Origin: Aphrocallistes beatrix
Taxonomy: Eukaryota; Porifera; Hexactinellida; Sceptrulophora; Aphrocallistidae
Length of the DNA stretch: 64,000 nt
Assembly (NCBI GenBank): GCA_963281255.1
Contig: OY725502.1
Location: forward strand, 3,224,001 to 3,288,000
Direction of reading: 5' to 3'
A program made the position numbers and the translations under genes. Below, piece by piece: positions 5,441-62,880 of the stretch. The notes beneath the pieces were generated by a model. That model had not been told where the DNA came from and did no database searches. It saw only the letters and a program-made list of their open reading frames with translations. Position 1 is the stretch's first letter. Each line of letters starts with the position of its first letter.

Positions 5441-6296
5441 GGGCATGCCTAATTTACGGGACGGGGCGGCATCCCGTCCCGTAAATGGGGGAGTTGCATA
5501 TGTCCGAATTTTGAAGTCATTTGTCCGAAAGAGCAGGACCTTCACTTGTCCGAAACGTATTTTCAGTGTGTTGTCACTTGTCCGAAACGTATTTTCAGCA
5601 TGTTGTCACTTGTCCGAAACGTTTTTCAGCATGTTGTCACTTGTCCGAAACGTTTTTCAGTATGTTGTCACTTGTCCGAAACGTTTTTCAGTATGTTGTC
5701 ACTTGTCAGAATGGTTTTTAGGACTGCTGTCACTTGTCAGAATGTTTTTTTGGGAAACATGAAGTTGAATAGAATTGGTAGGAAAGTGAGAGTGGGCATT
5801 TTGAGTTTGAAATAATATAAAGTGGCACGCGTGAGTGTTTTTTTAATTTCGTGGGGGGGTGATTGTCATTTATTATTTGGTAGAATGAATGGGAGAATGA
5901 AAGTAGTGATTCTTTAATTTCATTCAAAGAAATATCAGTGAAGAAACATCCGCCATTCCTTAAAAAACATTCTGACAAGTGACAGCAGTCCTAAAAATCA
6001 TTCTGACAAGTGACAGCATTTCTAAAAACCATTCTGACAAGTGACAGCAGTCCTAAAAACCATTCTGACAAGTGACAGCATTCCTAAAAACCATTCTGAC
6101 AAGTGACAGCAATCCTAAAAACGTTTCGGACAAGTGACAACATACTGAAAATACGTTTCGGACAAGTGACAACATGCTGAAAAACGTTTCGGACAAGTGA
6201 AGGTCCTGCTCTTTCGGACAAATGACACCCCCCGTAAATTAGGTACCTAGATTTTCCGGGATGGTCCCGTCCCGTCCCGTAAATTAGGCATGCCCC
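5441..6296. mobile_element. hAT-like foldback carrying inverted 31-bp tandem arrays
   Basis: Flanked by TTGTTGTG on both sides (5433-5440, 6297-6304), an exact 8-bp TSD. Termini GGGCATGCCTAATTTACGGG form an inverted repeat. The left arm holds about five units of the type GTCACTTGTCCGAAAC followed by two of GTCACTTGTCAGAATG; the right arm holds five of the second type and then three to four of the first, inverted. Type order is therefore mirror-symmetric while copy number is not. The spacer (about 5760-5945) has no supported gene. An 8-bp TSD fits the hAT superfamily. Confidence 0.75.
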
Positions 6297-6867
6297 TTGT
6301 TGTGCAATATAATGATGATTACTCACATTTGATAAGTGATTTAAGCACTTGTAAATATTGTTTATATATGCCAGTAATAAATTTCAATGATCTTGCACAG
6401 GAGGATAAATTTTGTGAGTTATGAGAATAAGTCTGAATATACTAACCAATCCCTGGTCCAAAAATTTAGGGAGTGGCATTGTCTTAGTGTATAGATTGCT
6501 ATTGTTTATGCTTTCAACGAAACAAGGGTATCGGACATTTTGGAACCGAGTATTCCCTATGTATTTGAGAACCAAGTTTCACCTCTACTGTATAACATCG
6601 ATTTAGTAATAATTCATGGCATCCCGTCAACATTACAAGTGTTAAGTCGATGTTGGCCTGCATATACGTAGTCAGTCCTGTCACGAATTGTAAGTGTCAC
6701 AAATGATCGGGTCACGAATTGTATGTACTTGTATCTCAATTTATCACAATTTCGTTGTGAAGTCATGATCCCATATTTTTGCTTCAAAAACTTAATTCAC
6801 TACCAAATGAACTCCTTAAATTAATTTATGTCCATACTTCAGTTATCTTTGATCGTTGGCTATTAAT

Positions 6868-7306
6868 TTGAGGAGCATAAGCAGTTAGAAGTTAAACAGT
6901 TGACTGAAACGATTCAAACACAAGTATGAATCAGCTCAAGATGAATTAGAATCTTTTAGTGCAATGGACACTATTCCGAATGCAAAAAGAGCTAAACTCA
7001 TTGAATGTCCTGTTTGTTCAAAATCAATCACAAGTTCACATCTGAAAGGACATTTGGTGATCCATACTGGTGAGAAGCCGTATAAATATCATACAATGTT
7101 TAAAGTCGTTTTCTCAAGCTTTATACTTAGGACTGCATTATCGTACACATACTGGAGAGAAGTCATATACATGTATTACCTGTTCTAAATCATTTTCTCT
7201 TTCTTCACACTTACATGACATAATTCATATACTTGTACATGCTGGATAGAAGCCATATAAATGCCGTACTTGTTCTACACCGTTTTCTCATTCTGTTTTC
7301 CAGCTC
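6868..7306 (+). pseudogene. Decayed C2H2 zinc-finger gene
   Basis: The translation carries the family's N-terminal module in pieces (EEHKQLEV, then a frameshift, YESAQDELESFSAMDTIPNA) and a first finger CPVCSKSITSSHLKGHLVIH with linker HTGEKPYK. Later fingers are recognisable only by switching frames and have lost cysteines (YKYHT in place of YKCHT). The upstream leader resembles that of the damaged gene at 61.3-61.9 kb, so the two form a subfamily. The 5 kb foldback ends about 130 bp upstream. It cannot encode a working multi-finger protein as it stands. Confidence 0.8.
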
Positions 7307-7621
7307 AACATGATGTGCTGCAGTCCATCTCCTTGGCTGAGACACTGAAATAAATACCTCTACTTGATATTCTCTGATGACAGCGAGTTCGAGTTGGATA
7401 AATAGGTGTTTAAAATGGAAGCCCATCCTTTTCAACTAATCCTTAGTTTGAGAATTTTACCGTCTAAATGAATGGTAAATTCCTATCTTGAATGTTTGTT
7501 AATTAATTATTTAATGCTTTTAATTAGTACAAGCGCGCTTCGCTTGCTTGCGCTGTGTCCACCGGAGGCGCCCCATGGGCGCCTGAGGTCACACTGATTA
7601 ATTATAAGGGAGATAACGGAG

Positions 7622-7770
7622 CGCCTGCATTTGTCCGACTCTGTATGTTGGCATTTGTCCGACGACTTTTTCTCTGTGTTGGCATTTGTCCGACTACTTT
7701 TTCTCCTATGTTGGCATTTATCCGACTACTTTGTCTCTATGTTGGCACTTGTCCGACGACTTCTTAGTTC
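7622..7770. repeat. Short 31/32-bp tandem array (GGCATTTGTCCGAC units)
   Basis: Five units begin GGCATTTGTCCGAC or a close variant, spaced 31-32 bp apart. The core matches the arrays at 5.5-6.2, 53.0-53.9 and 62.6-62.9 kb. The short overlapping reading frames here are products of the repeat, not genes. Confidence 0.8.
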
Positions 7771-8150
7771 TTTCCTATCATACCTTCTGCCCAGTCGCTG
7801 GAAAAGGCCTAATTTGAAGTAAGAATAATACCTAAAATGCCACACATCCCCCAATTTTTTATGTGATGAGTCAGCATTTTTTGAAGATAGTTACATCATA
7901 TGTGAGGTATATTAATATACAGATTCTATTAAAATTTCAGCCTTCTATAACCTAAAATGGCCGAGTTATAGTCGAAAAACTGAAATTTCTAATTATTAAA
8001 AAGGTGACAATGACGTCATAATTCCATGATGAGTCGACATTTTGGTCTGAGGTAAGAATTTACTGGAGCCATAGCCAAAAGACTCCCACATGCCAAAAAT
8101 CAGTTTTCTGTGACTGGCAGTTTCTTCAATCAATTCGTTACAGATATATA

Positions 8151-8338
8151 CAGTCGACTCCGCTTAATAGGGTCACATCGGTCAGAGGACATTTTGACCC
8201 GATTAAGCGGAGCACCCTATTACCCGAAAATATTTTGTATTAGCTTCAATGTGTGAGAGCTATTCTGGTCCTGCCAAAAGTGACCCGATTAAGCGGTTGA
8301 CCCGATTAAACAGTGACCCTATTAAGCGGAGTCGACTA
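8151..8338. mobile_element. Pogo/Tigger-type MITE
   Basis: Termini CAGTCGACTCCGCTTAATAG, inverted at the other end, with flanking TA. A second copy lies in opposite orientation at 8409-8575. CAGT... termini with TA duplication are typical of pogo/Tigger non-autonomous elements. Non-coding. Confidence 0.75.
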
Positions 8339-8408
8339 TATATATATATATATACGTATATACACATATATAAACATTAATCGAGTTTTAATAGTAAGGA
8401 TATATATA

Positions 8409-8575
8409 CAGTCGACTCCGCTTAATAGGGTCACTGTTTAATCGGGTCACTTTTGGTAGGACCGGAATAGCTCTCACACAAGCTAATACAAAATATTTTC
8501 GGGTAATAGGGTTCTCCGCTTAATCGAGGCAAAATGTCCTCTGACCGATGTGACCCTATTAAGCGGAGTCGACTG
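8409..8575. mobile_element. Pogo/Tigger-type MITE, inverted second copy
   Basis: Near reverse-complement of the 8151-8338 element, TA-flanked, ending GAGTCGACTG. A degenerate relative is seen at about 19845-19992, where phrases such as TTAATCGGGTCA persist. Confidence 0.75.
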
Positions 8576-8597
8576 TATATATATATATATATATATA

Positions 8598-9075: not shown

Positions 9076-9077
9076 TA

Positions 9078-9977: not shown

Positions 9978-10021
<44 letters not shown>

Positions 10022-13149: not shown

Positions 13150-13331
13150 ATGCCACTATTTTAAATATGCTGCTTCTACATAATAATAAAGTCATGAGTG
13201 CTTAGTTCCATTATTTATACCTAATAGGCATTACTCCATTGTGTCATATAAAGGTGCAGATTTCAAAGCATTTAGTATTCAAACCTTACTTTTCTTTACA
13301 AGTGACATTTCCTATTTTCTACGAACCTGAA

Positions 13332-14279
13332 ATGGCACAGCAATTCCCTAAAGAGCCACAAGATCTAAATAACGCAAATTTCGCGGATGAGTGGCAGGTA
13401 GATCATTCCAGCTACTCTTTAATGCAGTATTTAGTAACAACTGGAACAAATGAATTAAATATAAATGGTTGTTGGTATGAAGGTATAACAATCGAAACAG
13501 AAACCAACCAAATTTTTGTCATAGAGTACTCGTTTGGCAGTCCATACGTCTCAATCTTCTCAGAGACTGGTAATTTCATCAACAGATTCTCACATGAAAG
13601 GATGGGAGCCCCATACGGTATAGCGACCTATAGAGGCAATGTCTACACTACTGACACTATCGGTCATAATGTTTTACAGTTCAAACTATCAGCAGATCCC
13701 TATCTCGTTGGGAAGCTAGGCGAGAAAGGATCTGAAATTGCACAGTTTAATGATCCTAAACAACTCACTGTCTCTACGGACGGAGAGGTGTACGTTACGG
13801 ATTCCTATAACCATCGAATTCAAATCCTGGATTGTAACCTGAAATATCAAAGACAGATATCACATGATCAGATGATTTATCCGATTGATGTCAAACTCAC
13901 ACAGAAATCAATGTACGTTCTCAATGCCTGCCTTAAAAGGTTTTCTGACAGATCAAACACCCCATGTGTACACGTGTTTACTCTCGCCGGTGAAATACTA
14001 CAGTCCTTAATCACAAGTGGTAGAGCGTTTTCCCAGGTTCGCGAGTCCCAATTCTTCTGCTTGGATGAAAATAAAAATATAATTTTTAGTGGTGGTCGTC
14101 ACTATTACCCCATTAAGATATTCTCAAAAGAAGGGGAACCTCTCGAGGTGTTAGATGTACCAGATTATGGAACAACAAGGTTTTGTAGAGCAAGCGGGAT
14201 AGCTCTAGCAAACAATGGCAAACTAGTGCTGGCTGTCAGTAATGTCAAAAATGGTATTAAAATATTTTCTTGCTGGTGA
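13332..14279 (+). CDS. NHL-repeat beta-propeller protein
   Basis: Protein of 315 aa from ATG 13332 (MAQQFPKEPQD); the longer frame upstream lacks an ATG. Repeats show the NHL pattern, for example ETNQIFVIEY, RGNVYTTDTIGHNVLQF and DGEVYVTDSYNHRIQIL, giving about five to six blades. No RING, B-box, coiled coil, signal peptide or membrane segment is seen. NHL propellers bind RNA or protein partners, usually within TRIM-NHL ubiquitin ligases; this one is a stand-alone propeller, so its biochemical role is unknown. A polypyrimidine tract ending CTTTACAAG lies 30-45 bp upstream and could be a 5' UTR splice acceptor. Four intact relatives lie in this window. Confidence 0.85.
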   Translation: MAQQFPKEPQDLNNANFADEWQVDHSSYSLMQYLVTTGTNELNINGCWYEGITIETETNQIFVIEYSFGSPYVSIFSETGNFINRFSHERMGAPYGIATYRGNVYTTDTIGHNVLQFKLSADPYLVGKLGEKGSEIAQFNDPKQLTVSTDGEVYVTDSYNHRIQILDCNLKYQRQISHDQMIYPIDVKLTQKSMYVLNACLKRFSDRSNTPCVHVFTLAGEILQSLITSGRAFSQVRESQFFCLDENKNIIFSGGRHYYPIKIFSKEGEPLEVLDVPDYGTTRFCRASGIALANNGKLVLAVSNVKNGIKIFSCW

Positions 14280-21395: not shown

Positions 21396-21989
21396 TTAAG
21401 AAGTTTTGAGATCATTCCTAGGGCTCTTCTTCCCTGCTTCTTCTGGAGTTCGAGCTCCGATATCAACGATATAATCTTCGTATGCTTTGGGCTTCCTTTC
21501 TCGAAGTGGGTATCTTCTTTGAGGTAGTTGACTCCTTTCTTCTGACCCTTCGGTGCCGCGTATCTCTGCTCTGGTGATCTCTTCGGTGCCCTCTTGTCCT
21601 ACTTCGCCTTCTATTTGATTTTCCATAATATCTGGCTCCTCTGTCGCTGGGAGCTCTGCTCCCAATGCAGGGGAACCTGGGATAATAACCATATCAGTCC
21701 CACCCCCCTCGTACAATTTACAACGATCGGCATGAACCCACTTTGGGCCACTCCTTCTCTGGATCCTAAGTTTGGCACCCTGGTGCTCCAACACTCGATA
21801 AGGTCCGTTAAACTTCTGATCGAGAGAGTCGACTCGTACCTCGTTGCGCTCGAGTATATGATCACCAGGCTTAATCGTGGAAGGTTTAGCATTCACATTG
21901 TATCTATCCCGCATTCGCTTCTTGCTAACCTCGTCCCTCTCACGAGCCAAAGGTCTCCAGCTCCTGCTTTGTTCTCCTGAGATCTGCAA
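21396..21989 (-). pseudogene. Gypsy integrase C-terminal domain and tail
   Basis: Contains the GPY-type motif (KFNGPYRVL) and a basic C-terminal region of integrase, followed by an acidic, proline- and arginine-rich tail ending near RKPKAYEDYIVD. It is in a different frame from the catalytic core just upstream, with the two ORFs overlapping by about 50 bp, so a frameshift separates them. No chromodomain is recognisable. Role in an intact element: target-DNA binding during integration. Confidence 0.8.
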
Positions 21990-22524
21990 CGTGCTGTTGT
22001 GGTGCCTTCATCTCTCCTACTCTGTCCCTAGTCAGGACTGCGTCAACCGGCGATAGCGGTTGCCTACCTGTCATCAAGAGTTGTGCTGAGAAACCCGTGG
22101 ATGAACTCTCTATGTTATTATAGTAAAACGATATCTCCGGCAAAATACTGGGCCATGCGTCCTTCCTCAATTGTCTTCCGAGCATCAGACACCGAGCTAC
22201 CTGTTTCACAAGCCCGATGCTTCTTTCCACCAGACCATCCGCCTGTGGGTGGTATGGGGAGGAGTGTCTTTTGCTGATTCCCAACCTATCACAAAGTCCC
22301 CTGACTTCGGTTCCATCGATGTTCGGTGCCTGATCGGTAAGGAGTCCCTTCGGCACTCCATGCCCGCGGAAGATCCAACCTCTTTCGAACTCTTCCACCA
22401 ATGAAATCGCTCTCTGATCTTTCAAAGGGACCAGCTCTATGTAGCGTGTGAATACGTCAACTATGCAAATAAAATACCTGTACCCTTCATCTTCCCAAGG
22501 TAAAGTAGCTACGTCCATCGCCAC
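21940..22524 (-). pseudogene. Gypsy integrase catalytic core
   Basis: The core shows the DDE arrangement: Asp in AMDVATLPW, Asp in LLTDQAPN, and Glu in QADGLVERSIGLVKQ. It lies one frame away from the reverse-transcriptase ORF. The break coincides with a 5-bp tandem duplication (CAGGC at 22613-22617 and 22618-22622) inside the zinc-binding part of integrase. Confidence 0.85.
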
Positions 22525-24461
22525 GAGATCTCCTGGTCCAATTCCCGTGGAAACGAACTCTTCGAGTGGCTCGCGAGGTCTATTTGAAGCCTTTTCCTTT
22601 TGACAAGCAAGGCAGGCCAGGCCCTACAAAACTCTTTCGTATCTCGAGCCATCTTGCACCAGAAGTAACTCCGCCTCAGTAGTTGCAGCATTCTTCGCTG
22701 CCCAAAATGTCCCGCGGCGTGCACTTTACACATTACTTGCTTAATTGCCGATCTTGGCACTACCACCCTATCATCGAAGCAGAGCAACCCATCCCTCTCC
22801 ACCAAGTGGCTTGTCACCTTCTTAAGTTGCCCTGTTCCGACTTTCCCTTCGCGCCTCAACTGCAACCGCGCTCGGCTTATGACTGGGTCTTCGCTCTGCA
22901 AACGGATGAAGTCAAATCCCTGCTCTCCTTGCGACTCCGCGATGAATATCTTGTCTTCGAATACTCCGTCATCCTGTACCTCCACATCAACAGATTGCTC
23001 TGGTACCCGTGAGAGGTAATCGGGAACCACGTTCAATTTCCCCGGCCTATATGTGACCCGATAATCGAACTCCTCCAACTCCAATATCCACCTCGCGAAT
23101 GTATGGCGCGGGTCCTTCTGCTCCCGTAACAACTTCAATGGGTTATGATCTGTAATTAGTTCTACGCTGCCCGAAGCCCTCAGATAGATAGCCCACTTCC
23201 GACAGGCCGCTACCAACGCCCAGGCCTCCAGCTGTCCCGCCGCGTAATTCTTTTGTGCCGGGCTTAGCGCTGAAGAAAAGTAGTCAATTGGCCGCAAATC
23301 CCCCGTGCAGTCGTCCCGTTGAGAAAGTACAGCTGCGACCGCTGCAGCGCTGGCGTCGGCCTCAATTACAAAATCTTTGTTCCAGTCCGGATGCGCCAAT
23401 AAAACTGGTTGACATACCAACGCCTTTCGCAGCTCTTTGAATGCCCTTTCGCACGAATTGGTCCAGTCCCACCTGCTACCCTTCTTGGTCAGTTCGTAAA
23501 GCGGGTTGGCCACCTGTGAGATCCTTGGGATATATGACCGATAGAAATTAATACTTCCCAGAAAACGCTGCAATTCGGTTACCGACTGGGGTCTGGGAAA
23601 CTTAGCCAACTTCTCGATCATAGTAGGCAGAGGTCTCTTTCCCATTCCTGACACTAAATGGCCTAAGAATTCCACTTCCCTCCTAGCAAATTGACACTTC
23701 CGTAGCTTTACATGTAGATTCGCAGCTCGGAGCCGCTCCAACACCTCTCCAAGGTCCTTCAGATGACTCTCGAAATTCCGAGAGAAAACGATGCAGTCGT
23801 CCACATACGATTCAGTGTTCACTACGTCCTGTAGTATCTTGTCCATTAGGCGTTGAAAGGAAGCCTGCGCGTTCACTAACCCAAAGGGCATAACGGTCAC
23901 TTCATAAAGACCCCTTGGTGTGTTGAAGGTGGTCTTTTCTATATCGCCCTCCCTGACCGGCACACACCAATAGGCCGAGGCGATATCTAGCACGGAAAAA
24001 TAATTGTACCCATTCAGCTTATCCAGGATCGTTTGGATCTGAGGTATGCCGTATGTATCTTTTTTCGTTACCGAATTTAATCGTCTATAGTCGATAGCGA
24101 ACCGCTTGCGTCCATCCTTCTTAGTCACTAAGACAACGTTGCTTGCCCAGGGGGATGCCGAAGGCCTGCAAAGTCGTTGGTCCAAGAGCTCGTCTAACTG
24201 CTGGTTAATTTCTTCTTCCCATTTAGGGGGAAGACGTCGCGGTCTACTCTTTGCAGGCACAGCATTCCCTGTGTCAATTGCGTGCTCGCATTCATCTGTT
24301 CTTCCAGGCCTCTCACTAAATACTGTACTATATTCCTCCAACAAGCATCTTATCCGTTTTCGTTCCTCCTCCGTTAGCCCGCCGTCTAACACAGAGTCCA
24401 TTATCTCTTCGTCATCGACCTCGCTCGATCTACTGGTCGCCCTCCGGTTACTGTTTCGCAA
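22509..24461 (-). CDS. Gypsy reverse transcriptase-RNase H-integrase N-terminus
   Basis: 650-codon frame. Reverse transcriptase fingers and palm lie at about residues 70-260 with the YVDD active site. RNase H follows at about 350-470 (acidic residue in VIEADASAA, then LITDHNPLKLL). The integrase HHCC zinc-binding segment starts near residue 590 (HAAGHFGQRRM). The second CxxC pair is lost because of the 5-bp duplication. Function in an intact element: synthesis of cDNA from the element RNA. Confidence 0.9.
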   Translation of the reverse strand: MRNSNRRATSRSSEVDDEEIMDSVLDGGLTEEERKRIRCLLEEYSTVFSERPGRTDECEHAIDTGNAVPAKSRPRRLPPKWEEEINQQLDELLDQRLCRPSASPWASNVVLVTKKDGRKRFAIDYRRLNSVTKKDTYGIPQIQTILDKLNGYNYFSVLDIASAYWCVPVREGDIEKTTFNTPRGLYEVTVMPFGLVNAQASFQRLMDKILQDVVNTESYVDDCIVFSRNFESHLKDLGEVLERLRAANLHVKLRKCQFARREVEFLGHLVSGMGKRPLPTMIEKLAKFPRPQSVTELQRFLGSINFYRSYIPRISQVANPLYELTKKGSRWDWTNSCERAFKELRKALVCQPVLLAHPDWNKDFVIEADASAAAVAAVLSQRDDCTGDLRPIDYFSSALSPAQKNYAAGQLEAWALVAACRKWAIYLRASGSVELITDHNPLKLLREQKDPRHTFARWILELEEFDYRVTYRPGKLNVVPDYLSRVPEQSVDVEVQDDGVFEDKIFIAESQGEQGFDFIRLQSEDPVISRARLQLRREGKVGTGQLKKVTSHLVERDGLLCFDDRVVVPRSAIKQVMCKVHAAGHFGQRRMLQLLRRSYFWCKMARDTKEFCRAWPALLVKRKRLQIDLASHSKSSFPRELDQEISWRWT

Positions 24462-25294
24462 ATAATGGCGCGTGACTTCCCTATCTCGATCACTCCATTA
24501 TCCCAATCGAAAACAATTCGGCCAAAGCCCTCCATGAACTGACGTCCTAAGAGTAATGCTTGTTCCTCGCCGTCCAAGACCTGTATTTCCTCCTTGCGAG
24601 CCTTCTCTCCTGGGATCTTTATTGAGACATTCACATAACCAACGACCTGAACTGGGGTACTGCAAACGCCGTATACCTGGCCTCCTGTTCGTATCAGTTT
24701 AACGTCCAATCCCATCCTGAAAAGGGTCTCTTTATCCATTACATTGACTCGTACCCCTGTGTCAAGTAGGGCGCATGTCCTTTTCCCCTCCACTTGCACT
24801 ACAATGGTTGCCGCTTTTTCGCTCCATCGGTCTCCGTTGGTCACCATTGCGACCCTGTTTCTCCCCTTGCCGCGATCCACCCGTGTCCTACTGTTTACAC
24901 ACTGCCTGGCATCGTGCCCCTGCTTTCGACAGATATCGCAAATTCTCTCTGGGCAGGTCCTGTACCCATGTCCCTTCTTCCCGCAGGTGAAGCAAATCGT
25001 TTCGCTATAGCGGGGCCGAGCCTCTCTCCAGCCGGTTCTGCCGGACTCCCTCCCAGGTGGGTACACTCTATATACTTCTGGTTCACCCGGCTCGGCCGTA
25101 TCGCGCCCTACGTCTTCCGCTTGACTTTCATTAACCACCGCGCACCGCATTCCACTGGTAAGAGGCGTATGCGCTCCGTGATCTAATGCTATACCCTTGG
25201 CGCAACGTTGTCTGAACAAGCTTGAGGAACTCCCGCATCTCCTTATCAGACACTGGATTCTCAGAGTGACTGCTAATCCACGCCTTCGCAGCAC
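24401..25294 (-). CDS. Gypsy nucleocapsid zinc knuckles and aspartic protease
   Basis: Two CCHC knuckles (CFTCGKKGHGYRTC and CDICRKQGHDARQC) lie at about residues 98-130 and bind the element RNA in Gag. A retropepsin domain follows with the catalytic LLDTG motif at about 170-180; the residues after it read VRV where AS/AT is usual. It overlaps the RT frame by about 60 bp in a different frame, so normal expression would need frameshifting or this is a lesion. Confidence 0.85.
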   Translation of the reverse strand: MLRRRGLAVTLRIQCLIRRCGSSSSLFRQRCAKGIALDHGAHTPLTSGMRCAVVNESQAEDVGRDTAEPGEPEVYRVYPPGRESGRTGWREARPRYSETICFTCGKKGHGYRTCPERICDICRKQGHDARQCVNSRTRVDRGKGRNRVAMVTNGDRWSEKAATIVVQVEGKRTCALLDTGVRVNVMDKETLFRMGLDVKLIRTGGQVYGVCSTPVQVVGYVNVSIKIPGEKARKEEIQVLDGEEQALLLGRQFMEGFGRIVFDWDNGVIEIGKSRAIICETVTGGRPVDRARSMTKR

Positions 25295-25701
25295 CGTGAG
25301 CTTCCTCGGGGATTTGCGTAGTTAGCACTACACAAACATGCCTGTTTGGGAGCGATGCTCGTTTGCCCTCTGTCCAGAGTTGCGTGAAAAACACTTCCAC
25401 TCTTATTCCCCTTGCCCATGTCAATCCGCGAAACCTGGAGGTGGCCTCGTATTCATCGATGGAGGCGTCGAGGCTTGAATGTAATATCTTGAAAGCCGCT
25501 TCTATCGTCGCCTCTTTGACTGCTTCCAATGCGGTTGCGCTCGAACGCATCCCTGCAGACCAGTGAGGGTAAAATTTGTACTGCCGCTTTCTCCCCTGCT
25601 GTTGCGACAAGGGTACTGGTTGCCGCAACAAACAAAGGTTGCCAATCCTCTATTCGTTGTCCTTCGATGAGGGGCGGAATACCAATATTTGGGATGGCCA
25701 T
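25131..25701 (-). pseudogene. Gypsy gag, frame-broken
   Basis: Gag starts at the ATG at 25701 (MAIPNIGIPPLIEGQRIEDW) 22 bp inside the 5' LTR and continues as a helical capsid-like region. The frame changes at about 25560-25580 and again before the zinc-knuckle ORF. In intact elements gag is a single frame, so this copy is damaged. Confidence 0.7.
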
Positions 25702-26359: not shown

Positions 26360-26971
26360 TTGAGCTAGATTTAGTCAGAAGATCTATAAATCTATACATA
26401 ATCTAAAACTCGATTTTTAAGCCCTTTACATTGTTTGATTTGACCAAGCGTCTGCAGAGTACATGTGACTCATGCGGACACCAAGTGTTCCGAGATGCGC
26501 AGTACTCAAAGCGGGATTGTCTATTGGTAATATTTTCAGGATATGAAGCATAAGTTTCACCGAAATTGGTAGAGATAAACTTTTGAAAAGTGGAAGGAGC
26601 TGCCACACTACTTGTGATTCCTTAGTAGTGGGGGCCCCTCCTACTTTGCCCAAGTTTGTGCATATGGCTATATGTCAAGTATTAAAAGTATATTTTAAGT
26701 GGGTGTGGGAGACCATAAACGAAATTAGCCACAGTAAATATCATAGCAAACTAAAGTATGAAACAAGGTCAAAAGTCGACCTTAATTAAGGGATACGGAC
26801 AGTTCGGTATGCGGACAATTCGGTACAGACATTTCGGTACGGACAATTCGGTACATTTTGTAATATTGATTATATCTCTTTAATATATATATTGTCCGTA
26901 GTAATGTGAAATATTGAATTAAGAAATATCATGATAAACTCAAACAGAAAGATGCCACGTATTAATTCAAT
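26360..26971. other. Intergenic with short tandem repeats
   Basis: At about 26798-26855 a motif like CGGACAATTCGGTA recurs four times. It recalls the ACAATTCGTGAC repeats at the ends of the 5 kb foldback. Two overlapping minus-strand frames at 26403-26653 show no recognisable domain. Confidence 0.4.
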
Positions 26972-28217: not shown

Positions 28218-29098
28218 TATAGGTATCCAAGAATTAGATTTTTAAGACCTTCCTCATTAACTTTGTCTACCTTTCGCTTCGAAGGCTTTTCTCCAGCAAT
28301 ATATTTAGCTTGTTTGAGTTCTACAAGGTCCTGTTCTTGCTTCAAAGACAGCTAACTATTTCAGAGACTGCTAAATATTTGGATGGTAACATCCGACAGT
28401 CGCATTACGGAGTGTCAAGAAATGATTGAAAACCCGATGTCAACTGTAGTAAGGATATATTTTCTTCGTAAAGTACGGATTCCTACTGGTGCAGCAATTT
28501 TACTAAGAGAGAGATACTACCAATGTTATGAATTTTGATTTTCTTTCCCATTCCTTTTCCTTTTACAGGTATTGAAGATCTCCCCGGATATGAGGATATA
28601 TTGATGACAGTGTAGTCACTAACGAGTGTTACAACCAACAATTAATTAGTCATTATTTCTAATACAAGTAATATCGAAAATAAGTATGCATGATATACAT
28701 TCGGAAAACTAATTAAAAGTATTCCCTATATTTTTTCCCTAATTAACAGTGAATGTTAAGTAACAGCCAATAATAAACATAACATTATTCTTAGAATGAA
28801 CATTTCTCGAATGCCTGAAAATAAAGTTGATATGCTACTGATAAACTAGTAGAGATATTTCGAATAAATAAAAAAAATTGCAAATTATTAGAATGCAAAC
28901 GTTCCCTTACATAGTTTGTAGCCAGACTAGATAGAACAATTTCTTATAATTCAAGTTAAACGTAATCCGATACAGTTATACTCTACACCACCTATCAAAT
29001 AGTTATAAAAGCTACCAATGAATCCAATTCATAATATTTAATATTTACAAACATATCTCTCATTCTTGTAAATATTTTAATCTTTCTTTTAAGGGGAA
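28218..29098. other. Intergenic, 5' flank of NHL gene
   Basis: No repeats or ORFs recognised. A pyrimidine tract ending TTTCTTTTAAG lies 5 bp before the ATG of the NHL gene and could be a splice acceptor for a 5' UTR exon or leader. Confidence 0.35.
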
Positions 29099-34037: not shown

Positions 34038-34700
34038 CTGTTCAATTTCTAGCTGCTTATATTCCTCAGTTTTCTAACTGTTATATATCAGGATACCTTT
34101 AGCAACTTAACAGTTTTCAGTTCATATAGAGTTCATTTAGTACATACAAATCTCTAAATTTGTAAGATGGTAATATTGTGCGCATCTGTTTCTTTACTTC
34201 GTTTAATTAATCCTAAAGTAGCCAAACTTTATTTTCAAAATTTAGAAATTATCTATACGTACTATTATATAGATGATTGTTTGTTTAGAAGTCATTAGAA
34301 AGAAATATGTCGTGGAAACCTGAGCATTTGTATATGGAAAGGAGAATTTTACACGCCGACAAGCGTCAACGATCAATTGGTTCAGAAAAATATGGGATCA
34401 TGAGGTCACAACGAAATTCGTGAAATAAATTCTCTATTTTAACAATTTCACTATGAAACTCTCTGAGTAAGGGGACTACGTATTTATAATCAAGGAGAAC
34501 ATAGGTAAATTTAGATCTAACCGTAAACTCATGTACTAATACAATATTTTGTTTGTCAAAATTTAAGGTATGTAGATCCAGAATCAGGCAGGTGCTACTG
34601 TGGCACCATTGGGGAATTTAAAAAATTCAATGAAAACTTGGTTTCCGCGAAAAATCGCCGGTATAATTGGGATCAATGTTTTCGTTTAGAAACGTGCTTT
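34038..34700. other. Duplicated zinc-finger upstream flank
   Basis: Contains ATATCAGGATACC near 34087, the leader motif shared with two other zinc-finger loci. Segments at 34155-34260, 34380-34420 and 34570-34700 resemble 60.54-60.6, 62.0 and 62.19-62.3 kb, so the gene family was copied with flanking DNA. Confidence 0.5.
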
Positions 34701-41304: not shown

Positions 41305-41750
41305 CAACCACAGAAACTAAACCAACTTAGTACATCGACACCTGTGCATAATTATCCCAGAAACGCCTTTGTCTATTCTACCACCACTCCACACATCAAA
41401 CCAAACAAGCTGACTCACAGGTTCCACCAGCCGTAATACTATATAAACTCAGCACTATCCAGAGTCCTACTCACCAACGCTTGATTGCCATTGTCTACAA
41501 TCCTCTGACTAACACCTCCCAACCCCAAGCTTCACAGAATCTCAACTCATAGACATTATCAATACCACGTGACTTATTCCTATTGACTTAATAATCCCAT
41601 TTCAGCAGTGTTGAGCATTGTATGTAGTATCCATGTTCTATACTATCTTAAGCAGTTATACATGTACATATTTTCATATATAATTGCTAGTTCTTTAGTA
41701 GAATCAATTGACTACACCAGTTCCATTCTCTTAGCTTGATTAATTCAATA

Positions 41751-42668
41751 ATGGCAACTGCTGGTATTAGTGTAGAGTTTGATGGGACTGAGTTTGGTCT
41801 AGCTGAGGAGCCAGGCAGAATCGTGGTTACGGAGTCTACTGCTGGAGTGTCTAGTCTGCCTATACTTGCTCACAATAGTGGAATGACTCCTGTAGTGAGG
41901 GTTGGAGGGAAACAGAGTTTTGAAGAAGGAATGTTTTACTGGCCTTGTGATGTAGCAGTGGACTATCAAACTGGAAACATTTATGTGTCAGAATATTACA
42001 GCAATAGAGTCCAAGTGTTTGATAGCAAAGGAGAGTATTTGTTCAAGTTTGAAGATAAGATGGATACTCCTGGTTCTATTGCTATTTCTGAAAATAGAGT
42101 GTTTGTAAGTCAGTTTGACTTTAATTGTGTGTTAGTTCATGATTTGAACGGAACTCTTATCACACAGTTCCAACCGATTGAAATTGAAGAGTCCCAATTT
42201 ACTCAATCAAATGCCGCATTCATTGAAATAAATAAAGACATTTATGTGTGTGATCAAAATAATAATAGAATACAAATGTTTTGCAAAGATTTACCGTTCA
42301 AATCTCAGTTCGGGCATGGAATACTGGAAGTACCACCATTTGACATCAAACTAACTAACGAGTTTATTTATGTACTTTGCTCCCAAAAACCTTTCCTATA
42401 CTCTTTCACTTTTGACTTCACTCAAAGACACAGCACTATTATCAGTTCTATTTCCAAACACTTGAAAGGGCCTCATGCATTCTGCATAGATGGATCTGGC
42501 CACTTTATTATATCGGATTACGGTCAAGATGCTATTGTTATTTTCAATAAACAAGGTGAATTGATGCGCACAATTACTGATAGTGTATCTGGACCGTGTG
42601 GAGTTACACTGGATTCAAAAGGAAGAATCTTAGTTGTCGGTATGAACCACTCCCTTCTCATTTTCTGA
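41751..42668 (+). CDS. NHL-repeat beta-propeller protein
   Basis: 305 aa from ATG 41751 (MATAGISVEFDGTEFGL). The N-terminal 45 residues are not propeller-like. Blades then follow: TGNIYVSEYYSNRVQVF, ENRVFVSQFDFNCVLVH, KDIYVCDQNNNRIQMF and GHFIISDYGQDAIVIF. No RING, B-box or coiled coil. A pyrimidine tract ending CATTCTCTTAG lies about 15-20 bp upstream of the ATG. A partial, deleted duplicate of this gene and its 3' flank is at 45.9-46.55 kb. Confidence 0.87.
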   Translation: MATAGISVEFDGTEFGLAEEPGRIVVTESTAGVSSLPILAHNSGMTPVVRVGGKQSFEEGMFYWPCDVAVDYQTGNIYVSEYYSNRVQVFDSKGEYLFKFEDKMDTPGSIAISENRVFVSQFDFNCVLVHDLNGTLITQFQPIEIEESQFTQSNAAFIEINKDIYVCDQNNNRIQMFCKDLPFKSQFGHGILEVPPFDIKLTNEFIYVLCSQKPFLYSFTFDFTQRHSTIISSISKHLKGPHAFCIDGSGHFIISDYGQDAIVIFNKQGELMRTITDSVSGPCGVTLDSKGRILVVGMNHSLLIF

Positions 42669-44364: not shown

Positions 44365-45252
44365 CTAATAAGAAAATATTTGTAATCGATAAGTAGCATA
44401 AGACAAGACGACTAATTTAGAGCTGTTAATCAGAGCTATCCCTTGTGGTGCAGGAAAAACTCCCACATCATCATGATACTCCCCTAACGTGTGGAGAAGT
44501 GTGCCTTCTTTTGTGAATATTTTGATCTTATGATCTGTCCAATCGCTAATAACCAAATTCTCGCTAGCGTCCAGACAGAAAAAGAGTGCAGAATCAACTT
44601 GCATTCCGTTTCCACGCGAGATCAAGGAACGTATTTTCTCGCCGGAGTGAGAAAATACGTGAACGCAACGAGAATCCACGCAGCTAAGCACATAGACCTC
44701 ATTCGCTGTCAGCTTAACGTCACAGGGTCTCCTCAGGGAGTGGTGTGACATGGAGCGCAGATAACCCAGCTCCACATCCAATACTTGCACACGGTGGTTT
44801 TCGCAATCAGCAACGTAGACTTCCGTGAATGAAGCAGCGAGTTGTCTCGGCTCACGGAACTCTCCAAAACCTGAACCTTCCCCGCCCATTCTACCGACAA
44901 ACCGGATATCTGGCGCCTTTTTGAAACGGAATGTGCAATGCTCCTCAATGTCCGTGACGTAGACATTGTCCTTCTGTATCGCTACTCCCCACGGTACACT
45001 CATGCCCTCATGCGAGAATGCGTCTAGGAACTCTCCCTGCTCTGAGAAGATGGATACGCGGAAGTGATGGAACCATCCTTCTGTGATGAAAATGTTATTA
45101 GTGTCCGTATCGATCGCCAGACCACTAGGACCATTGAGATGTCCCGGGGCTTGTCCTTGAGTCCCTACAGCTATCAAGTGTTCCAAATGGAAATACACGC
45201 ATGCTTCTCCCAGTTCTAAAAGTTCATTCGCTTGCGGGTATTGAATGGTCAT
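44365..45252 (-). CDS. NHL-repeat beta-propeller protein
   Basis: 295 aa from ATG 45252 (MTIQYPQANELLELGEAC); the longer open frame upstream has no ATG. Blades: TNNIFITEGWFHHFRVSIF, KDNVYVTDIEEHCTFRF, FTEVYVADCENHRVQVL, ANEVYVLSCVDSRCVHVF and SENLVISDWTDHKIKIF. No RING, B-box or coiled coil. It is the closest intact relative of the 11.5 kb pseudogene. The gene is less AT-rich than its flanks. Confidence 0.87.
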   Translation of the reverse strand: MTIQYPQANELLELGEACVYFHLEHLIAVGTQGQAPGHLNGPSGLAIDTDTNNIFITEGWFHHFRVSIFSEQGEFLDAFSHEGMSVPWGVAIQKDNVYVTDIEEHCTFRFKKAPDIRFVGRMGGEGSGFGEFREPRQLAASFTEVYVADCENHRVQVLDVELGYLRSMSHHSLRRPCDVKLTANEVYVLSCVDSRCVHVFSHSGEKIRSLISRGNGMQVDSALFFCLDASENLVISDWTDHKIKIFTKEGTLLHTLGEYHDDVGVFPAPQGIALINSSKLVVLSYATYRLQIFSY

Positions 45253-45567
45253 TTTTAATATAGGATTAAAGGATATAGTAACTAGTTTCGGGATAATTAT
45301 AGTCTCGTGTCTTTTTAAGCTGATATTTTGCACCAGGGATGAAGTAGTGTACGATATTATTATAACGTGGATCTACTTGTATAATCTATAGTTTTAATAT
45401 CAATCAACAAATGCAACCAATAATTACTACGATAATATCTATCAAATCTCAAATAATCTCTAGTAATCCTATACTACTTAATAGTTAACTTTGGTTACTT
45501 AACAAAGCTCTGAACTAACATCTTATTATATATCTCCTTCCTCAAGAATTACGAACTCGCCCTCGAG

Positions 45568-51065: not shown

Positions 51066-51800
51066 TTAGGTAGAAGAGTTACACGAAGTCCCTCCATTGT
51101 GTATGCGATAATGTCGTTTCAAGTTTGAAGAACGATCAAACGATTTTGAGCAGGTACTGCATTTATACGGCGTCTCTCCGGTATGCGTACGATGATGTTG
51201 TCTTAAGCTAGTAGAGTGAGAAAACGATTTTGAACAGATGAGACATTTATACGGCTTCTCTCCACTATGTATACGATAATGTCTCGCTAGACTTGAAGCA
51301 TCAGAAAACGATTTTGAACATGTTACGCATTTATACGGCTTCTCACCAGTATGTATACGATAATGTCTCGCCAGACTTGAAACATCAGAAAACGATTTTG
51401 AACATGTTACGCATTTATACGGCTTCTCTCCAGTATGTGTTCGCTTATGTATTGCTAAGTGTGAAGATTGAGAAAATGATTTCGAACAGGCTAGGCGTTT
51501 ATACGGTTTCTCTCCAGTATGTGTTCGCTTATGTTTTGTTAAGTCTGAAGTTTCAGAAAATGACTTAAAACAGGCTAAACATTTATATGGTTTCTCTCCT
51601 GTATGGATCATCAAGTGTCTTTTTAAATGTGAATATGTGATTGGTTTATAACAAACAGGACATTCAGTGCGTTTAGTTTTTCCTGCATTCGGAATAGTAT
51701 CCATTACACTGAAATATTCTAAATCCTCTTGAGCTGATTCATAGTTTGAATCGGATTCAATCATCTGTTCAACTTCTAACTGCTTATGCTCCTCAGTCAT
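51066..51800 (-). CDS. C2H2 zinc-finger protein, seven fingers, one defective
   Basis: 244 aa, start [13 protein letters not shown], followed by the acidic module ([16 protein letters not shown]). Seven finger units; the first (CPVCYKPITYSHLKRHLMIH) has a short loop. The third has lost its first zinc cysteine (YKRLACSKSF, one TGC-to-CGC change), so six are likely to fold. Fingers 4 and 5 are near duplicates, a recent 84-bp expansion. The tail is CNSST. Predicted nuclear DNA-binding protein. Leader motif ATATCAGGATACC lies just upstream, then a pogo-type MITE. Confidence 0.9.
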   Translation of the reverse strand: MTEEHKQLEVEQMIESDSNYESAQEDLEYFSVMDTIPNAGKTKRTECPVCYKPITYSHLKRHLMIHTGEKPYKCLACFKSFSETSDLTKHKRTHTGEKPYKRLACSKSFSQSSHLAIHKRTHTGEKPYKCVTCSKSFSDVSSLARHYRIHTGEKPYKCVTCSKSFSDASSLARHYRIHSGEKPYKCLICSKSFSHSTSLRQHHRTHTGETPYKCSTCSKSFDRSSNLKRHYRIHNGGTSCNSST

Positions 51801-51841
51801 TAACTGTGATATATCAGGATACCTTTTGCAACTAACTAATA

Positions 51842-52002
51842 CAGTAGAACTCGGTTAGTACTCGGGATACAACGTACTTCGGCTTAGTACATACTCGTTT
51901 CTCTCAACCAGAATTCATTTATTACATATATATAGACTCCTATGTAATATCAACTCGGTTTATTACGACTTACGGATAGTACGTACTATCCGAGTTCTAC
52001 TG
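51842..52002. mobile_element. Pogo/Tigger-type MITE upstream of zinc-finger gene
   Basis: Termini CAGTAGAACTCGG, inverted at the right end, TA-flanked, 40 bp upstream of the start codon. A partial relative is at about 46930-46970. Confidence 0.75.
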
Positions 52003-52938: not shown

Positions 52939-52988
52939 CATAGGCGTAGCCAGCCTCTAGTCCAGGGGGGCAACTCCCTACGCCCATG
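52939..52988. mobile_element. 50-bp hAT remnant
   Basis: Ends CATAGGCGTAGCCAG and CATGGGCGTAGGGAG (inverted); flanked by CCTCACAG (52931-52938) and TCTCACAG (52989-52996), a 7/8 TSD. Almost all internal sequence is deleted. Confidence 0.6.
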
Positions 52989-52995
52989 TCTCACA

Positions 52996-53962
52996 GGGGG
53001 TGCCTTCATTAGTTAGAATTTCAAGGTTGTCACAAGTTAGAATTTTATCAACTGTCACAAGTTAGAATCGTTTATAGCTCGATTGTCACAAGTTAGAATT
53101 GTTTTTAACTTGATTGTCACAAGTTAGAATTGTTTTTGACTTGATTGTCACAAGTTAGAATTGTTTTTAGCTCGATTGTCACAAGTTAGAATTGTTTTTA
53201 GCTCGATTGTCACAAGTTAGAATTGTTTTTAGCTCGATTGTCACAAGTTAGAATCGTTTTTAACTTGATTGTCACAAGTTAGAATTGTTTTTGACTTGAT
53301 TGTCACAAGTTAGAATTGTTTTTAGCTCGATTGTCACAAGTTAGAATTGTTTTTAGCTCGATTGTCACAAGTTAGAATTGTTTTTAGCTCGATTGTCACA
53401 AGTTAGAATCGTTTTTAACTTGATTGTCACAAGTTAGAATTGTTTTTGACTTGATTGTCACAAGTTAGAATCGTTTTTAACTTGATTGTCACAAGTTAGA
53501 ATTGTTTTTGACTTGATTGTCACAAGTTAGAATCGTTTTTAGCTCGATTGTCACAAGTTAGAATCTTTTCATTGTTCCACTAATTTTATTTATCATTTTC
53601 ATTGTTCTACTTCTTTTATTTATTAGTTTATTTGCTTTCACATTTTATTTTAAATGTCCTTTCTTAAAAAACGATTCTAACTTGTGACAATCAAGTCAAA
53701 AACAATTCTAACTTGTGACAATCAAGTCAAAAACAATTCTAACTTGTGACAATCGAGCTAAAAACAATTCTAACTTGTGACAATCGAACTAAAAACAATT
53801 CTAACTTGTGACAATCAAGTCAAAAACAATTCTAACTTGTGACAATCGAGCTAAAAACGATTCTAACTTGTGACAATCGGGCTAAAAACGATTCTAACTT
53901 GTGACAGTTGATAAAATTCCAACTTGTGACAACCTTAAAATTCTAACTAATGCAGCGCCCCC
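52996..53962. mobile_element. hAT-like foldback made of 31-bp tandem arrays, 8-bp TSD
   Basis: Exact TSD GTCTCACA (52988-52995, 53963-53970). The left arm has 18 units of the type GTCACAAGTTAGAATT at 31-bp spacing and the right arm 9 inverted units, around a spacer of about 90 bp. The outer ends share CATTAGTTAGAATTT. Left-arm variants (AAC, GAC, AGC, AGC, AGC at one position) repeat in order as a 155-bp higher-order unit. Confidence 0.88.
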
Positions 53963-55239
53963 GTCTCACAGTAACTTGACTAGGGATGCGGTAGAAGATG
54001 GTTGAACTAATACATGAGCTGCCTTAAATCATTAACAAAGCACAATAGAGCTTAGGAATGTATTACCAGCGTATATAAATATGGTGTCAAAGTACCCATA
54101 TCCGTTGAGATATTCGACAAATGACCAAATGTGGCTAATATGATAAATTGTCTAATAACTCGTAAACCATTGAATTTAGAGTCGAAATTATATTACCACT
54201 TAATAGGAAATAGTATATTGGCTATCAAATGGAATTATGTCCAGCTATCGCGGTTTTCAAGATATAACCCCAACTGACCAAAACACGTTTCCATAGCAAC
54301 ACTGGAATGTAGCAACATTCCATGAAAAAGTTTCAAATTTTTCGTATCAACCCATTCACATATCAGTTCTATGCGGAAAACTTCTAATAAAAACACGTAG
54401 ACAACTAATAAAAACACGTAGAAGTGCCCTTAAACGACCTCTGAAAATCACAAATATATCCTATTGCGTAACCATATGGTGACTAATCTAAATTTTAAAA
54501 ACGGATATGGGTACTTTGACACCATATTTATATATGCTGGTAATACATTCCTAAGCTCTATTGTGTTTTGTTAATGATTTAAGGCAGCTCATGTATTAGT
54601 TCAACCATCTTCTACCGCATCCCTAGTCGTAGAAGTTACTGTGAGGCCTTATATACAGTAGGCTATGCTATAGCCCAATAACAACGAGCTCTGTGCCGTA
54701 CATCGTCAGCATTTGGTCGCCAAGCACTTAACAGCTGATCCTTACCAGTCAACAGTTCCAACTTAGACTAATACTTAGAATTCCAGATGAACATATGGTA
54801 GAGCCATCATATCGTCATTTTATTATATTCTGACTTAATAAATAATGAAGTATGGGGGGCTTCTAAAAGTTTCAAGCACTTTAGGGGGCGTTACAAAGAG
54901 AAAGGATGGGAAACACTGGGTTAACCGAATCCAGCCTTGGCTAAATATTTATTTACAGTAAGGATAATTTAAGAACATTTTAAAGCGTCATTACTATATG
55001 ATTTAAAATGTGATTAAAATAGGTCAGAATATCGTCAAAATTTATTTTATTATCTTAAATTTGAGAAAACAGGTGTAAAAACCACATTATTCACATTGCA
55101 CACATAGTTGAGGGAAGCAACATGACCAATGGACTCCAAATAACGACTCCTATTTAACAATTATCCACAACGGACCCAAGTTCCAGGACCCGAGATTGAA
55201 CACCTAGTCCTTACTTAAAAGAGTATACTGAAACGTAAA

Positions 55240-57324: not shown

Positions 57325-57356
57325 GAGTTTTAATAGTAAAGATATATATATATATA

Positions 57357-58091: not shown

Positions 58092-58790
58092 TCAAACTTC
58101 TGGATGCTTACTGATCAGCTGCACACTTTCCTTAGTAGAACAGTTATACAACAACTTCCCTCCAGAATGTTTACAACGACGATGTAGTGATAGACTTGAA
58201 GATTGAGTATATGACTTTGAGCAGGCAAGACATTTATACGGTCTCTCTCCAGTATGTGTACGATTATGTTTTGTTAGATTTGATAAATGAGAAAATGACT
58301 TTGAACAGATAAGGCATTCATACGGCTTCTCTCCAGTGTGTATATGATTATGTTCTATTAGATTTGATGCTTGAGAAAATGATTTCGAACAGGCAAGGCA
58401 TTTATACGGCTTCTCTCCAGTATGTGTTCGCTTATGTCTTGATAAGTGTGAAGATTGAGAAAATGATTTCGAACAGGCTAGGCATTTAAATGGTTTCTCT
58501 CCAGTATGTGTACGATTATGTTTTGTTAAGTCTGAAGTTTCAGAAAATGACTTAAAACAGGCTAAACATTTATATGGCTTCTCTCCTGTATGGATCATCA
58601 AGTGTCTTTTTAAATTTGAATATGTGATTGATTTTGAACAAACAGGACATTCAGTGAGTTTACCTTTTCTCGCATTTGGAAAATTGTCCATTACACTGAA
58701 ATATTCTAAATCCTCTTGAGCTGATTCATAGTTTGAATCGGATTCAGTCATCTGTTCAACTTCTGACCGCTTATTATATCCCTCAGTCAT
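58092..58790 (-). CDS. C2H2 zinc-finger protein, six fingers
   Basis: 232 aa, start MTEGYNKRSEVEQM, then the acidic module ([17 protein letters not shown]). Six C2H2 fingers with CSKSF patterns and TGEKPY linkers; the last (CLACSKSYTQSSSLSLHRRC) has one extra residue between its histidines. The C-terminus is longer than in paralogues (NCSTKESVQLISKHPEV). Leader motif ATATATCAGGATACC lies about 10-25 bp upstream of the ATG. Predicted nuclear DNA-binding protein. Confidence 0.9.
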   Translation of the reverse strand: MTEGYNKRSEVEQMTESDSNYESAQEDLEYFSVMDNFPNARKGKLTECPVCSKSITYSNLKRHLMIHTGEKPYKCLACFKSFSETSDLTKHNRTHTGEKPFKCLACSKSFSQSSHLSRHKRTHTGEKPYKCLACSKSFSQASNLIEHNHIHTGEKPYECLICSKSFSHLSNLTKHNRTHTGERPYKCLACSKSYTQSSSLSLHRRCKHSGGKLLYNCSTKESVQLISKHPEV

Positions 58791-59046
58791 TTATAGTGAT
58801 ATATATCAGGATACCGTTCGCAACTTACTGTCAACAATCCGAGAACTACTAAAAAGATAATTAATGAAGTATTATTTATTTAGAGGTAAACAGGTAAACT
58901 AAGAGCAGTTCTTGACACCCTAAACTCAACTAAAAAACAATAGTGGAGCAGGTTGTGGATTATAGATCCATGTGTATACTATTTGTTTGGACCTAAGATA
59001 TGTAGGCAATGAAGGAAGTTCCTAACAATTCTACCTAACTAGAATA

Positions 59047-61236: not shown

Positions 61237-61892
61237 TCAGGTAGAAGTGTTATGTGACTTCTTTCCAGTATGTTTAGAATTATGTCGTGTTAAGTACGAA
61301 GAATGGCAAAAAGATTAGAACAGACAACACATGTATATGGCTTCCCTCTAGTATGTATACGAGTGTGCAGTGTTAGGCTTGAAACTTGGGGAAACGACTT
61401 GGAACATGTTAGGGATTTATATAGCTTCTCACCGGTGTGTATACGATTATGTCGCATTAAGCTAGTTGAGTGAGGGAACGATTTTGAACAGGTAACGCAT
61501 TTATATGGCTTCTCTCTAGTATGTGTACGTTTATGCTGTGTTAAGTTAGTAGAATCAGAAAAAGATTTTGAACAGATGGGGCATTTATATCGCTTCTCTC
61601 CAGTATGTGTACGACAATGTTTCGATAGATTTGAAGAATCAGAAAACGATTTTGAACAGGTAGTGCATTTATACGGCTTCTCTCCAGTATGGATGGTTAG
61701 GTGTCTTTTTAAATAGAAATATGTGATTGATTTTAAACAAACAGGACATTCAACGTGTTTTGCTTTTCTTGCATTCGAAATAGTGTCTATTGCACTTAAA
61801 TTTTCTAATTCCTCTTGAGCTGATTCATAGTTTGAATCGGAATCAGTCATCTGTTCAACTTCTAACTGCTTATGCTCCTCAATAGCCCACAA
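61237..61892 (-). pseudogene. C2H2 zinc-finger gene with truncated last finger
   Basis: The frame from 61892 to 61290 gives 200 codons: acidic module ([19 protein letters not shown]), then five finger units and the start of a sixth. The fifth has lost its first zinc Cys ([10 protein letters not shown]). The sixth stops after [13 protein letters not shown], but the next frame continues [17 protein letters not shown] to a family-like end at 61237, consistent with loss of one base. It may still be expressed as a shortened four- to five-finger protein. The leader differs from the other three intact genes but matches the 6.9 kb pseudogene. Confidence 0.8.
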
Positions 61893-62600
61893 TCAAAGAT
61901 AACCAAAGTAAGGATAATCTATTTATTATTATAAAAAATTTAATAAAATGAATTTGAGTTCGTTTGATAGTGAATCAAGTTTTTGAAGCAAAAAATATGG
62001 GACTATGACGTCACAACGAAATTTGTGTAATAAATTCTTTGTTTTCAACAATGTCACCACCGAAATTATATCAGTAAAGAGAACTATTTATAATCAAGGT
62101 GAACTTTGATAAATTTGGGCCTGTAAAGTCGCATACTAAAACGATTTTAAAATTCATTGTCAAGACTAGACAATGTCAAAAGGGTATCTAGATCCAGAAT
62201 CAGGCGGTCGCCACTTGGCACCATTTGGGTTTTTAAATATTCACCAATAAAACTTGGTTTCTGCTAAAAATCGTCGGTATATTGGGAGCCATGGTTTTCA
62301 TTTACAAACAGTTCGAATTAACTTCGAAAGATTCAAGTTTTATTGTGTTGATGTGCATGTACGTACTTGTTACCGGACTAATGAAGATATACTAATACGT
62401 ACTATAAGTCGTGGATAAATAGAAATCTAGTAAAGCATTAGTTAAGATGGAATAAGAAGTAGTTAATATGGAATAAGAAGTAATCTATACCTATTGCTAG
62501 GGAGTTCGCTAACTAAAGGTTAGGTAACAATCAAGTAGGCTATACTAATATCTGCAGCATATTAATGCAATGGTCATGATTACCATGCCAAACCACATGT
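61893..62600. other. Duplicated zinc-finger upstream flank
   Basis: About 61960-62040 matches 6745-6810 in inverse orientation and shows the empty target site of the 5 kb foldback. About 62188-62300 matches 34570-34700. Confidence 0.55.
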
Positions 62601-62629
62601 CGCATTGTCATAATTCAAATTAATTTTCA

Positions 62630-62880
62630 ATGTACTGTCATTAGTTCGAAAGGATTTTCGATGTACTGTCATTAGTTCAAATGGATTTTCAATGTACTGT
62701 CATTTGTTCGAATGGTGTTTCAATGTACTAACTGTTGTTAGTTCGAATGATATTTCAATGTATTGTCATTAGTACGAATGGACTGTCATTAGTTTGAATT
62801 TGGAGGTTGGCATTAGTTCTACGGGAGTTTTGGAGATTTGCCATTAGTCTTACTGGAGTTTTGGGAGTTGTATCAGTTCT
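62630..62880. repeat. 31-bp tandem array, single arm
   Basis: About eight units beginning GTCATTAGTTCGAATG or variants, most at 31-bp spacing, becoming irregular to the right (TGGCATTAGTTCTAC). No inverted partner and no TSD are seen. Confidence 0.8.

Follow-up and report, generated by a model that had tools for sequence, protein, structure and literature searches.

Introduction

The Foldback (FB) elements of Drosophila carry inverted repeats composed of 10-, 20- and 31-bp units and are flanked by a 9-bp target-site duplication (TSD). Tandem arrays with a 31-bp period were analyzed here in a stretch of 64,000 nucleotides from the hexactinellid sponge Aphrocallistes beatrix (assembly GCA_963281255.1, contig OY725502.1, positions 3,224,001 to 3,288,000 of the forward strand), hereafter called the window, and in their relatives elsewhere in the genome. 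The elements bearing these arrays belong to the Mutator superfamily of Mutator-like elements (MULEs) and not to hAT, as a preliminary description of the window had proposed. Their architecture is already known from the MULEs Muta1 and Tm1, while the 31-bp unit, the spacing register of 24, 25 and then 31 bp counted inward from the element end (24/25/31), and the RING finger at the C-terminus of the transposase itself are the points of variation.

Several MULE families of Aedes aegypti, Muta1 among them, have an 8- or 9-bp TSD and long terminal inverted repeats (TIRs) made of a short terminal motif and subterminal tandem repeats, and their non-autonomous copies vary in repeat number (PMC5225508). 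Such repeats were reported in 10 of 12 long-TIR families, and Muta1, a type 2 foldback, moves in yeast, which is a precedent for activity of a MULE with subterminal repeats (PMC5225508). Differently from the sponge elements, the mosquito repeats are 9-15 bp long, with nine 12-bp repeats and 3-4-bp spacers in Muta1, and the available text of that report neither describes a 24/25/31 register nor mentions a RING finger (PMC5225508). The Mutator/Foldback element Tm1 of root-knot nematodes is a MULE with FLYWCH (Phantom subclass), has composite TIRs with variable tandem repeats and gives rise to derivatives resembling miniature inverted-repeat transposable elements; its asymmetric terminal motifs resemble the unequal ends of the sponge families A and D described below, but its repeat is about 14 bp, its TSD is mostly 9 bp and RING is not mentioned in the available text (PMC3169594). 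A RING-type finger accompanies a MULE in Ghost elements and, as a C3HC4 finger, in one Phytophthora MuDR, the latter being one table entry, but in Ghost it lies in a separate 420-bp open reading frame (ORF) of one element, and neither TIR nor TSD was reported there (PMC6446971). Galileo, a foldback element of the Drosophila P superfamily, also has long TIRs whose tandem repeats hold further transposase binding sites, a precedent for such sites in foldback-like end repeats, but its transposase is of the P type with a THAP domain (PMC3688188).

Results

Four array loci in the window share one core

Period-31 arrays were detected by Tandem Repeats Finder (TRF) at 5542-5749, 5961-6200, 7640-7762, 53053-53564, 53667-53906, 62623-62782 and 62799-62870. 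The 14-bp core KKCAYWWGTYHGAM had 54 matches in the window, compared with 0.15 on average when the window was mononucleotide-shuffled 20 times, and 53 of them fell inside four array loci with a sole outlier at 9504. Four loci with 31-bp arrays and a common core had been claimed in the preliminary description, and this was borne out, as were inverted arms with exact 8-bp TSDs for two of the arrays (elements 1 and 2, Table 1; core counts allow one mismatch). The first array began earlier than described, with its first core at 5495 instead of 5521. The period of 31 bp, occasionally 32, held for the inner spacings, whereas the two outermost were 24 and 25 bp (21 and 25 bp in the left arm of element 1). 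A location inside elements with 8-bp TSDs was confirmed in the window for two of the four arrays. Element 3, at 7.6 kb, had no right arm in the window and is a half element, and no intact end was found for the degenerate array of element 4, at 62.6 kb.

Table 1. Array-bearing elements and associated features in the window
Feature	Position	Strand	Description
Element 1	5487..6231	.	Complete non-autonomous foldback-type element, family A; left end GGGGGAGT
Element 1 TSD	5479-5486 and 6232-6239		8 bp, CCGTAAAT, exact
Element 1 left array	5495..5749	+	9 cores; spacings 21, 25, 32, 32, 31 x4
Element 1 right array	5961..6226	-	9 cores, convergent
Element 2 (locus L031)	52996..53962	.	Complete non-autonomous element, family D; ends GGGGGTGCC and GGGGGCGC
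Element 2 TSD	52988-52995 and 53963-53970		8 bp, GTCTCACA, exact
Element 2 left array	53005..53564	+	19 cores; spacings 24, 25, then 31
Element 2 right array	53667..53954	-	10 cores, one mismatched; spacings 24, 25, then 31
Element 3	7618..7762	+	Family C left end (GGAGCGCC) and array; spacings 24, 31, 32, 31
Element 4	62623..62870	+	Degenerate array, E-type then F-type units; left of a decayed MULE gene
Transposase gene remnant beside element 4	63504..64000	-	Starts about 0.6 kb past the array; continues beyond the window end

At the right end of element 1 the outermost core was apparently lost or fused, as judged by eye. A relative of element 3 with both arms present was found at locus L075 (loci are numbered with the prefix L). 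In the gene remnant beside element 4, 17 residues matching the RING end lay at 63504-63554 and MULE matches ran from 63779 to about 64416 in window numbering; the same order of array, RING and MULE recurred in L067 and L071.

As judged by eye, element 1 itself is nested within a short element with inverted repeats, GGGCATGCC...GGCATGCCC, at 5441-6295, which is flanked by the 9-bp direct repeat CTTGTTGTG at 5432-5440 and 6296-6304. A related unit, CCTAATTTACGGGACGGGACGAGTAAAGATG, forms another period-31 array in L076 (1-108).

Unit anatomy

Eight unit consensuses (A1, A2, C, D, E, G, I and window element 4) were compared, and G1, A4, G8, T9, G12, A13, TTTT at 19-22 and T31 were invariant in all of them. 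The TTTT tract begins five bases past the core. The earlier statement that the core is conserved while the rest of the unit differs was therefore correct for the core and incomplete for the rest, since this tract is invariant too. The mean pairwise identity among consensuses was 0.75 for core positions compared with 0.58 for the spacer, with the core higher in 25 of 28 pairs; the core figure is favored by the search and the T tract is not, and the eight consensuses are not independent. Variability was also measured in middle units picked by their neighbors and not by their own core (161 in family A, 120 in family D), and amounted to 0.019 (A) and 0.007 (D) in the core against 0.053 (A) and 0.071 (D) in the spacer, where the D variation was concentrated at three positions.

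Spacing register, arms and target-site duplications across the genome

The 100.5 Mb assembly was searched by DNA, with the best 40 candidates scored in each search, and at least 40 clusters were obtained with element 1 and at least 35 with element 2. The element 2 list takes in relatives of family D and omits weaker hits belonging to family A (C2:3830 kb, C2:1156 kb). Spacings and TSDs were evaluated in 36 loci (30 A, 6 D) with one mismatch allowed in the core. Convergent arms were present in 34 of these, and the other two were still counted among the 71 arms. The outermost spacing was 24 bp in 61/71 arms and the next one 25 bp in 53/70, and further inward 377 of 435 spacings were 31 bp and 39 were 32 bp. 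The number of units per arm ranged from 2 to 34 (lower bounds in L067 and L009, because N stretches lie in or beside the array arms), and left and right numbers were uncorrelated (rho -0.03, 34 elements). The array length is thus free, because the two arms of one element differ without correlation, while the register is largely fixed. Inverted ends like these, which are long, repetitive inside and variable in length, are those of the Foldback structural type.

Among 33 elements of families A and D (L009 being excluded from 34 pairs), 8-bp TSDs were exact in 27 and had at most one mismatch in 30, compared with 5 matching TSDs in 1122 control pairings of left flanks with right flanks of other elements. 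Element 1 was scored with one mismatch in this scripted count, though its TSD reads exact. The ends were asymmetric in most copies, GGGGGAGT versus GGGGTGCA in family A and GGGGGCGC versus GGGGTGCC in family D. The A and D elements in L015, L018, L028 and L038 share the flanking repeat CTCATGTATTAGTTCAACC or its complement, which indicates that another repeat is a frequent insertion target.

Array-bearing elements belong to the Mutator superfamily

The proximity of 75 array clusters to MULE (best 150 of 168 candidates), hAT (best 150 of 672) and Merlin matches was determined. Six MULE pairs were found within 2.5 kb (0.51 expected) and six within 5 kb (0.96 expected). For the scored hAT matches, the numbers were none within 1.5 kb, one within 2.5 kb (0.63 expected) and four within 5 kb (1.19 expected). 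Merlin gave no pair within 2.5 kb (0.08 expected) or 5 kb (0.16 expected) and was rejected, as 0/20 DDE_Tnp_IS1595 matches lay within 20 kb of the clusters.

RING-clade MULE genes lay within 1.5 kb of 7/35 element 2 clusters (0.11 expected), and with the clade transposase as query, 3/37 element 4 clusters had a match at this distance (0.11 expected). The clade of 70 MULE loci used here was drawn by identity and not by the RING at each locus; ten matches at 27-34% identity were set apart by eye, with no tree, as another MULE clade, and others at 32-36% were kept. Transposase or RING pieces were located between the arms in four of the six D loci (L035, L038 with the overlapping L039, L040 and L050), all six of which had been found through array DNA alone; none was seen between the arms of L031, the window copy, or L032. 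The coding locus L065 shares the interior of element 2 (85% over 123 columns). The preliminary description had proposed checking for an autonomous hAT with the same subterminal core. The coding pieces inside D arms were MULE or RING instead, and a hAT origin is largely refuted for family D.

Coding elements carry a RING-bearing transposase

Seven of 121 MULE matches (L069-L072, L078-L080) were chosen for long open frames regardless of arrays, and five more (L065-L068, L073) because arrays were nearby. Tandem arrays accompanied all four RING-bearing loci of the first set. TRF or the core placed them at both ends of L069, L071 and L072, whereas L070 had an array at one end and an inverted match of about 60 bp as the only sign of the other. 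For the three RING-less loci, L078-L080, the retrieved 4.5 kb, which may fall short of their ends, contained no mirrored arrays in the flanks; they form another clade (100/100), and L078 has other 15-bp arrays nearby. L069 contains an uninterrupted frame of 535 aa that includes both the MULE and the RING domain; the arms of this element are 97% identical, and its 8-bp TSD, GTAGTATT, is exact. L072 is bounded by the exact 8-bp TSD ATTTAAAC and has one stop between the MULE and RING frames.

The transposase of this clade begins with a FLYWCH-like zinc finger at the N-terminus, continues with an RNase H core of the IS256/MULE type and ends in a C3HC4 RING, which in L069 sits in the transposase's own ORF. 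The MULE transposase domain PF10551 scored above the cut-off in L069, L071 and L072, and also in 18/18 homologues at E <= 0.01. The DDE residues in the RNase H core and the inverted ends with a TSD of 8 bp (8-11 bp in MULEs) identify these elements as MULEs, and the N-terminal FLYWCH finger suggests membership in the Phantom/Muta group. P-element transposase chains were among the Foldseek matches (E 3.6e-4 and 5.2e-4), ranked behind ISCth4. Two homologues of the L069 transposase, with 65% and 62% identity, were present in the glass sponge Oopsacas minuta.

A tree of 26 proteins united all seven loci that have a GTCA..GT..GA-type core in one clade (99/97), and L069 (motif GTAGAACTTTGATCAAA) and L070 (motif GGAATCTGTCCTACGAC) fell in other supported clades. 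Five of the seven were chosen for nearby arrays, which does not itself force them into one clade, and four of the seven were short pieces (24-49% of columns).

Other repeats and genes in the window

An array of 15-16-bp units (GTCACGAATTGTAA) was found at 1772-1845 and about 6680-6725, and as an inverted pair in L078 (3184-3440). Arrays of 14-16-bp units, TACGGACAATTCGG / ACGGACAGTTCGCTAC, were found at 26794-26855 and in L073 (4249-4392). At 8139-8587, GTGACCCGATTAAGCG units form nested inverted repeats between TA-rich flanks, which look like Tc1/mariner-type ends. ORFs named from their sequence as C2H2 zinc-finger-like were located over 84-bp tandem units on the minus strand at 33171-34073, 51066-51854, 58092-58790 and 61290-61892, and a fifth lay just beyond the window (L077, 2800-3510). 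The ORFs at 13206-14279, 29093-30001, 36251-37414, 41712-42668 and 44365-45372 presumably encode NHL-repeat proteins, and those on the minus strand of a GC-rich stretch at 21396-25649 are assumed to belong to a Ty3/Gypsy-like retroelement.

Discussion

Our work indicated, with a probability of roughly 0.8, that the arrays make up the long inverted ends, repetitive inside, of one MULE clade and hold amplified putative transposase-binding sites. The architecture, the 8-bp TSDs, the convergent arms, the 24/25/31 register, the transposase or RING pieces inside D elements and the correspondence of one clade to one core were observed directly. Amplified transposase-binding sites in foldback-type MULEs are the best functional reading of these features, in which binding would be the role of the repeats.

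Several observations weigh against this interpretation. No transposase or coding copy of their own was found for families A and C in 40 and 24 clusters, and both families are tied to the clade by core, ends and, for A only, register. With the clade transposase as query, 1/40 element 1 clusters (0.12 expected) and 0/24 element 3 clusters (0.07 expected) had a match within 1.5 kb, and the sole A case was L011, where the A element is flanked by an exact TSD of its own. One of the four array families lay within 1.5 kb of 10/70 clade MULE loci, a lower bound because L071 has such arrays and is yet unlisted. The register is not universal, being 24 and then 31 without 25 in family C, and 25 almost throughout in L072. 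TSDs failed in three rows (L023, L024 and L030), and a matching TSD was not seen by eye in L067 and L071. Flanks were shared between L009 and L013 and between L029 and L030, so the independent insertions are somewhat fewer than the elements. Finally, the match between motif and transposase clade is based on three motifs.

The arrays could alternatively be neutral by-products, in which slippage or unequal exchange multiplied an ordinary end piece and the inner units have no role. The free array length, differing between two arms, would fit this, as would units slightly more alike within an arm than between elements (0.943 versus 0.929 in A, 0.965 versus 0.946 in D) and D spacers that vary mainly at three positions, as if two unit types alternate. 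We consider it improbable, as the core and T tract agree across the eight consensuses beyond the rest of the unit, with the reservations on these figures given above, the core is conserved within families even in units not chosen by it, and arrays accompany all four RING MULE loci chosen by ORF, in three cases with a different motif or period. A mainly regulatory role, in which a host factor would bind the arrays as promoters, enhancers or insulators, is less probable still. Long Mutator TIRs reportedly contain promoters together with transposase binding sites (PMC3310237), and the TTTT tract could be the site of such a factor, but gene-less elements retain long arrays on both arms, and the motif shifts with the transposase clade among the three motifs, which a host factor does not predict.

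Families A and C might also represent another superfamily with a convergent repeat architecture, for example P/Galileo, as foldback structure is known with different transposases (PMC3169594) and no MULE gene is linked to A or C; this seems very unlikely, given that the core and the GGGG-type ends are the same and that A also shares the 8-bp TSD and the 24/25/31 register. Least likely of all are hAT transposons with amplified subterminal repeats: 8-bp TSDs are compatible with hAT too, the genome is rich in hAT and the pairs within 5 kb exceeded expectation, but the absence of scored hAT matches within 1.5 kb, the MULE or RING pieces inside D arms and the same kind of ends on coding MULE elements with exact TSDs argue against them.

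If the arrays are amplified transposase-binding ends, each 31-bp unit, with its 14-bp core and T tract, would be one binding site, separated from its neighbor by about three helical turns, and the core may be read by the FLYWCH-like finger. The outer three sites, set 24 and 25 bp apart, might act as an end-recognition module beside the cleavage point, and inner units, added through unequal exchange or slippage, would raise avidity while their number drifts. Elements 1 and 2 probably moved in trans, because they have TSDs and lack genes. Far more speculatively, the 24-25-31-31... register, in which core and T tract recur every three turns, could be a ruler for a transposase filament growing inward from the end, the C-terminal RING could be an intrinsic ubiquitin ligase restricting this assembly or taking it apart, and transposase and motif could have co-diversified into several pairs in one genome.

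Transposase binding to Foldback and Phantom repeats was called untested in PMC3688188. The genome of A. beatrix holds several transposase/repeat pairs with distinct motifs (GTCA..GT..GA, GTAGAACTTTGATCAAA and GGAATCTGTCC), and these pairs, the largely fixed register and the wide range of units per arm make the question of repeat binding directly testable here. Testing the motif pairs would also explain why the transposase carries a RING finger.

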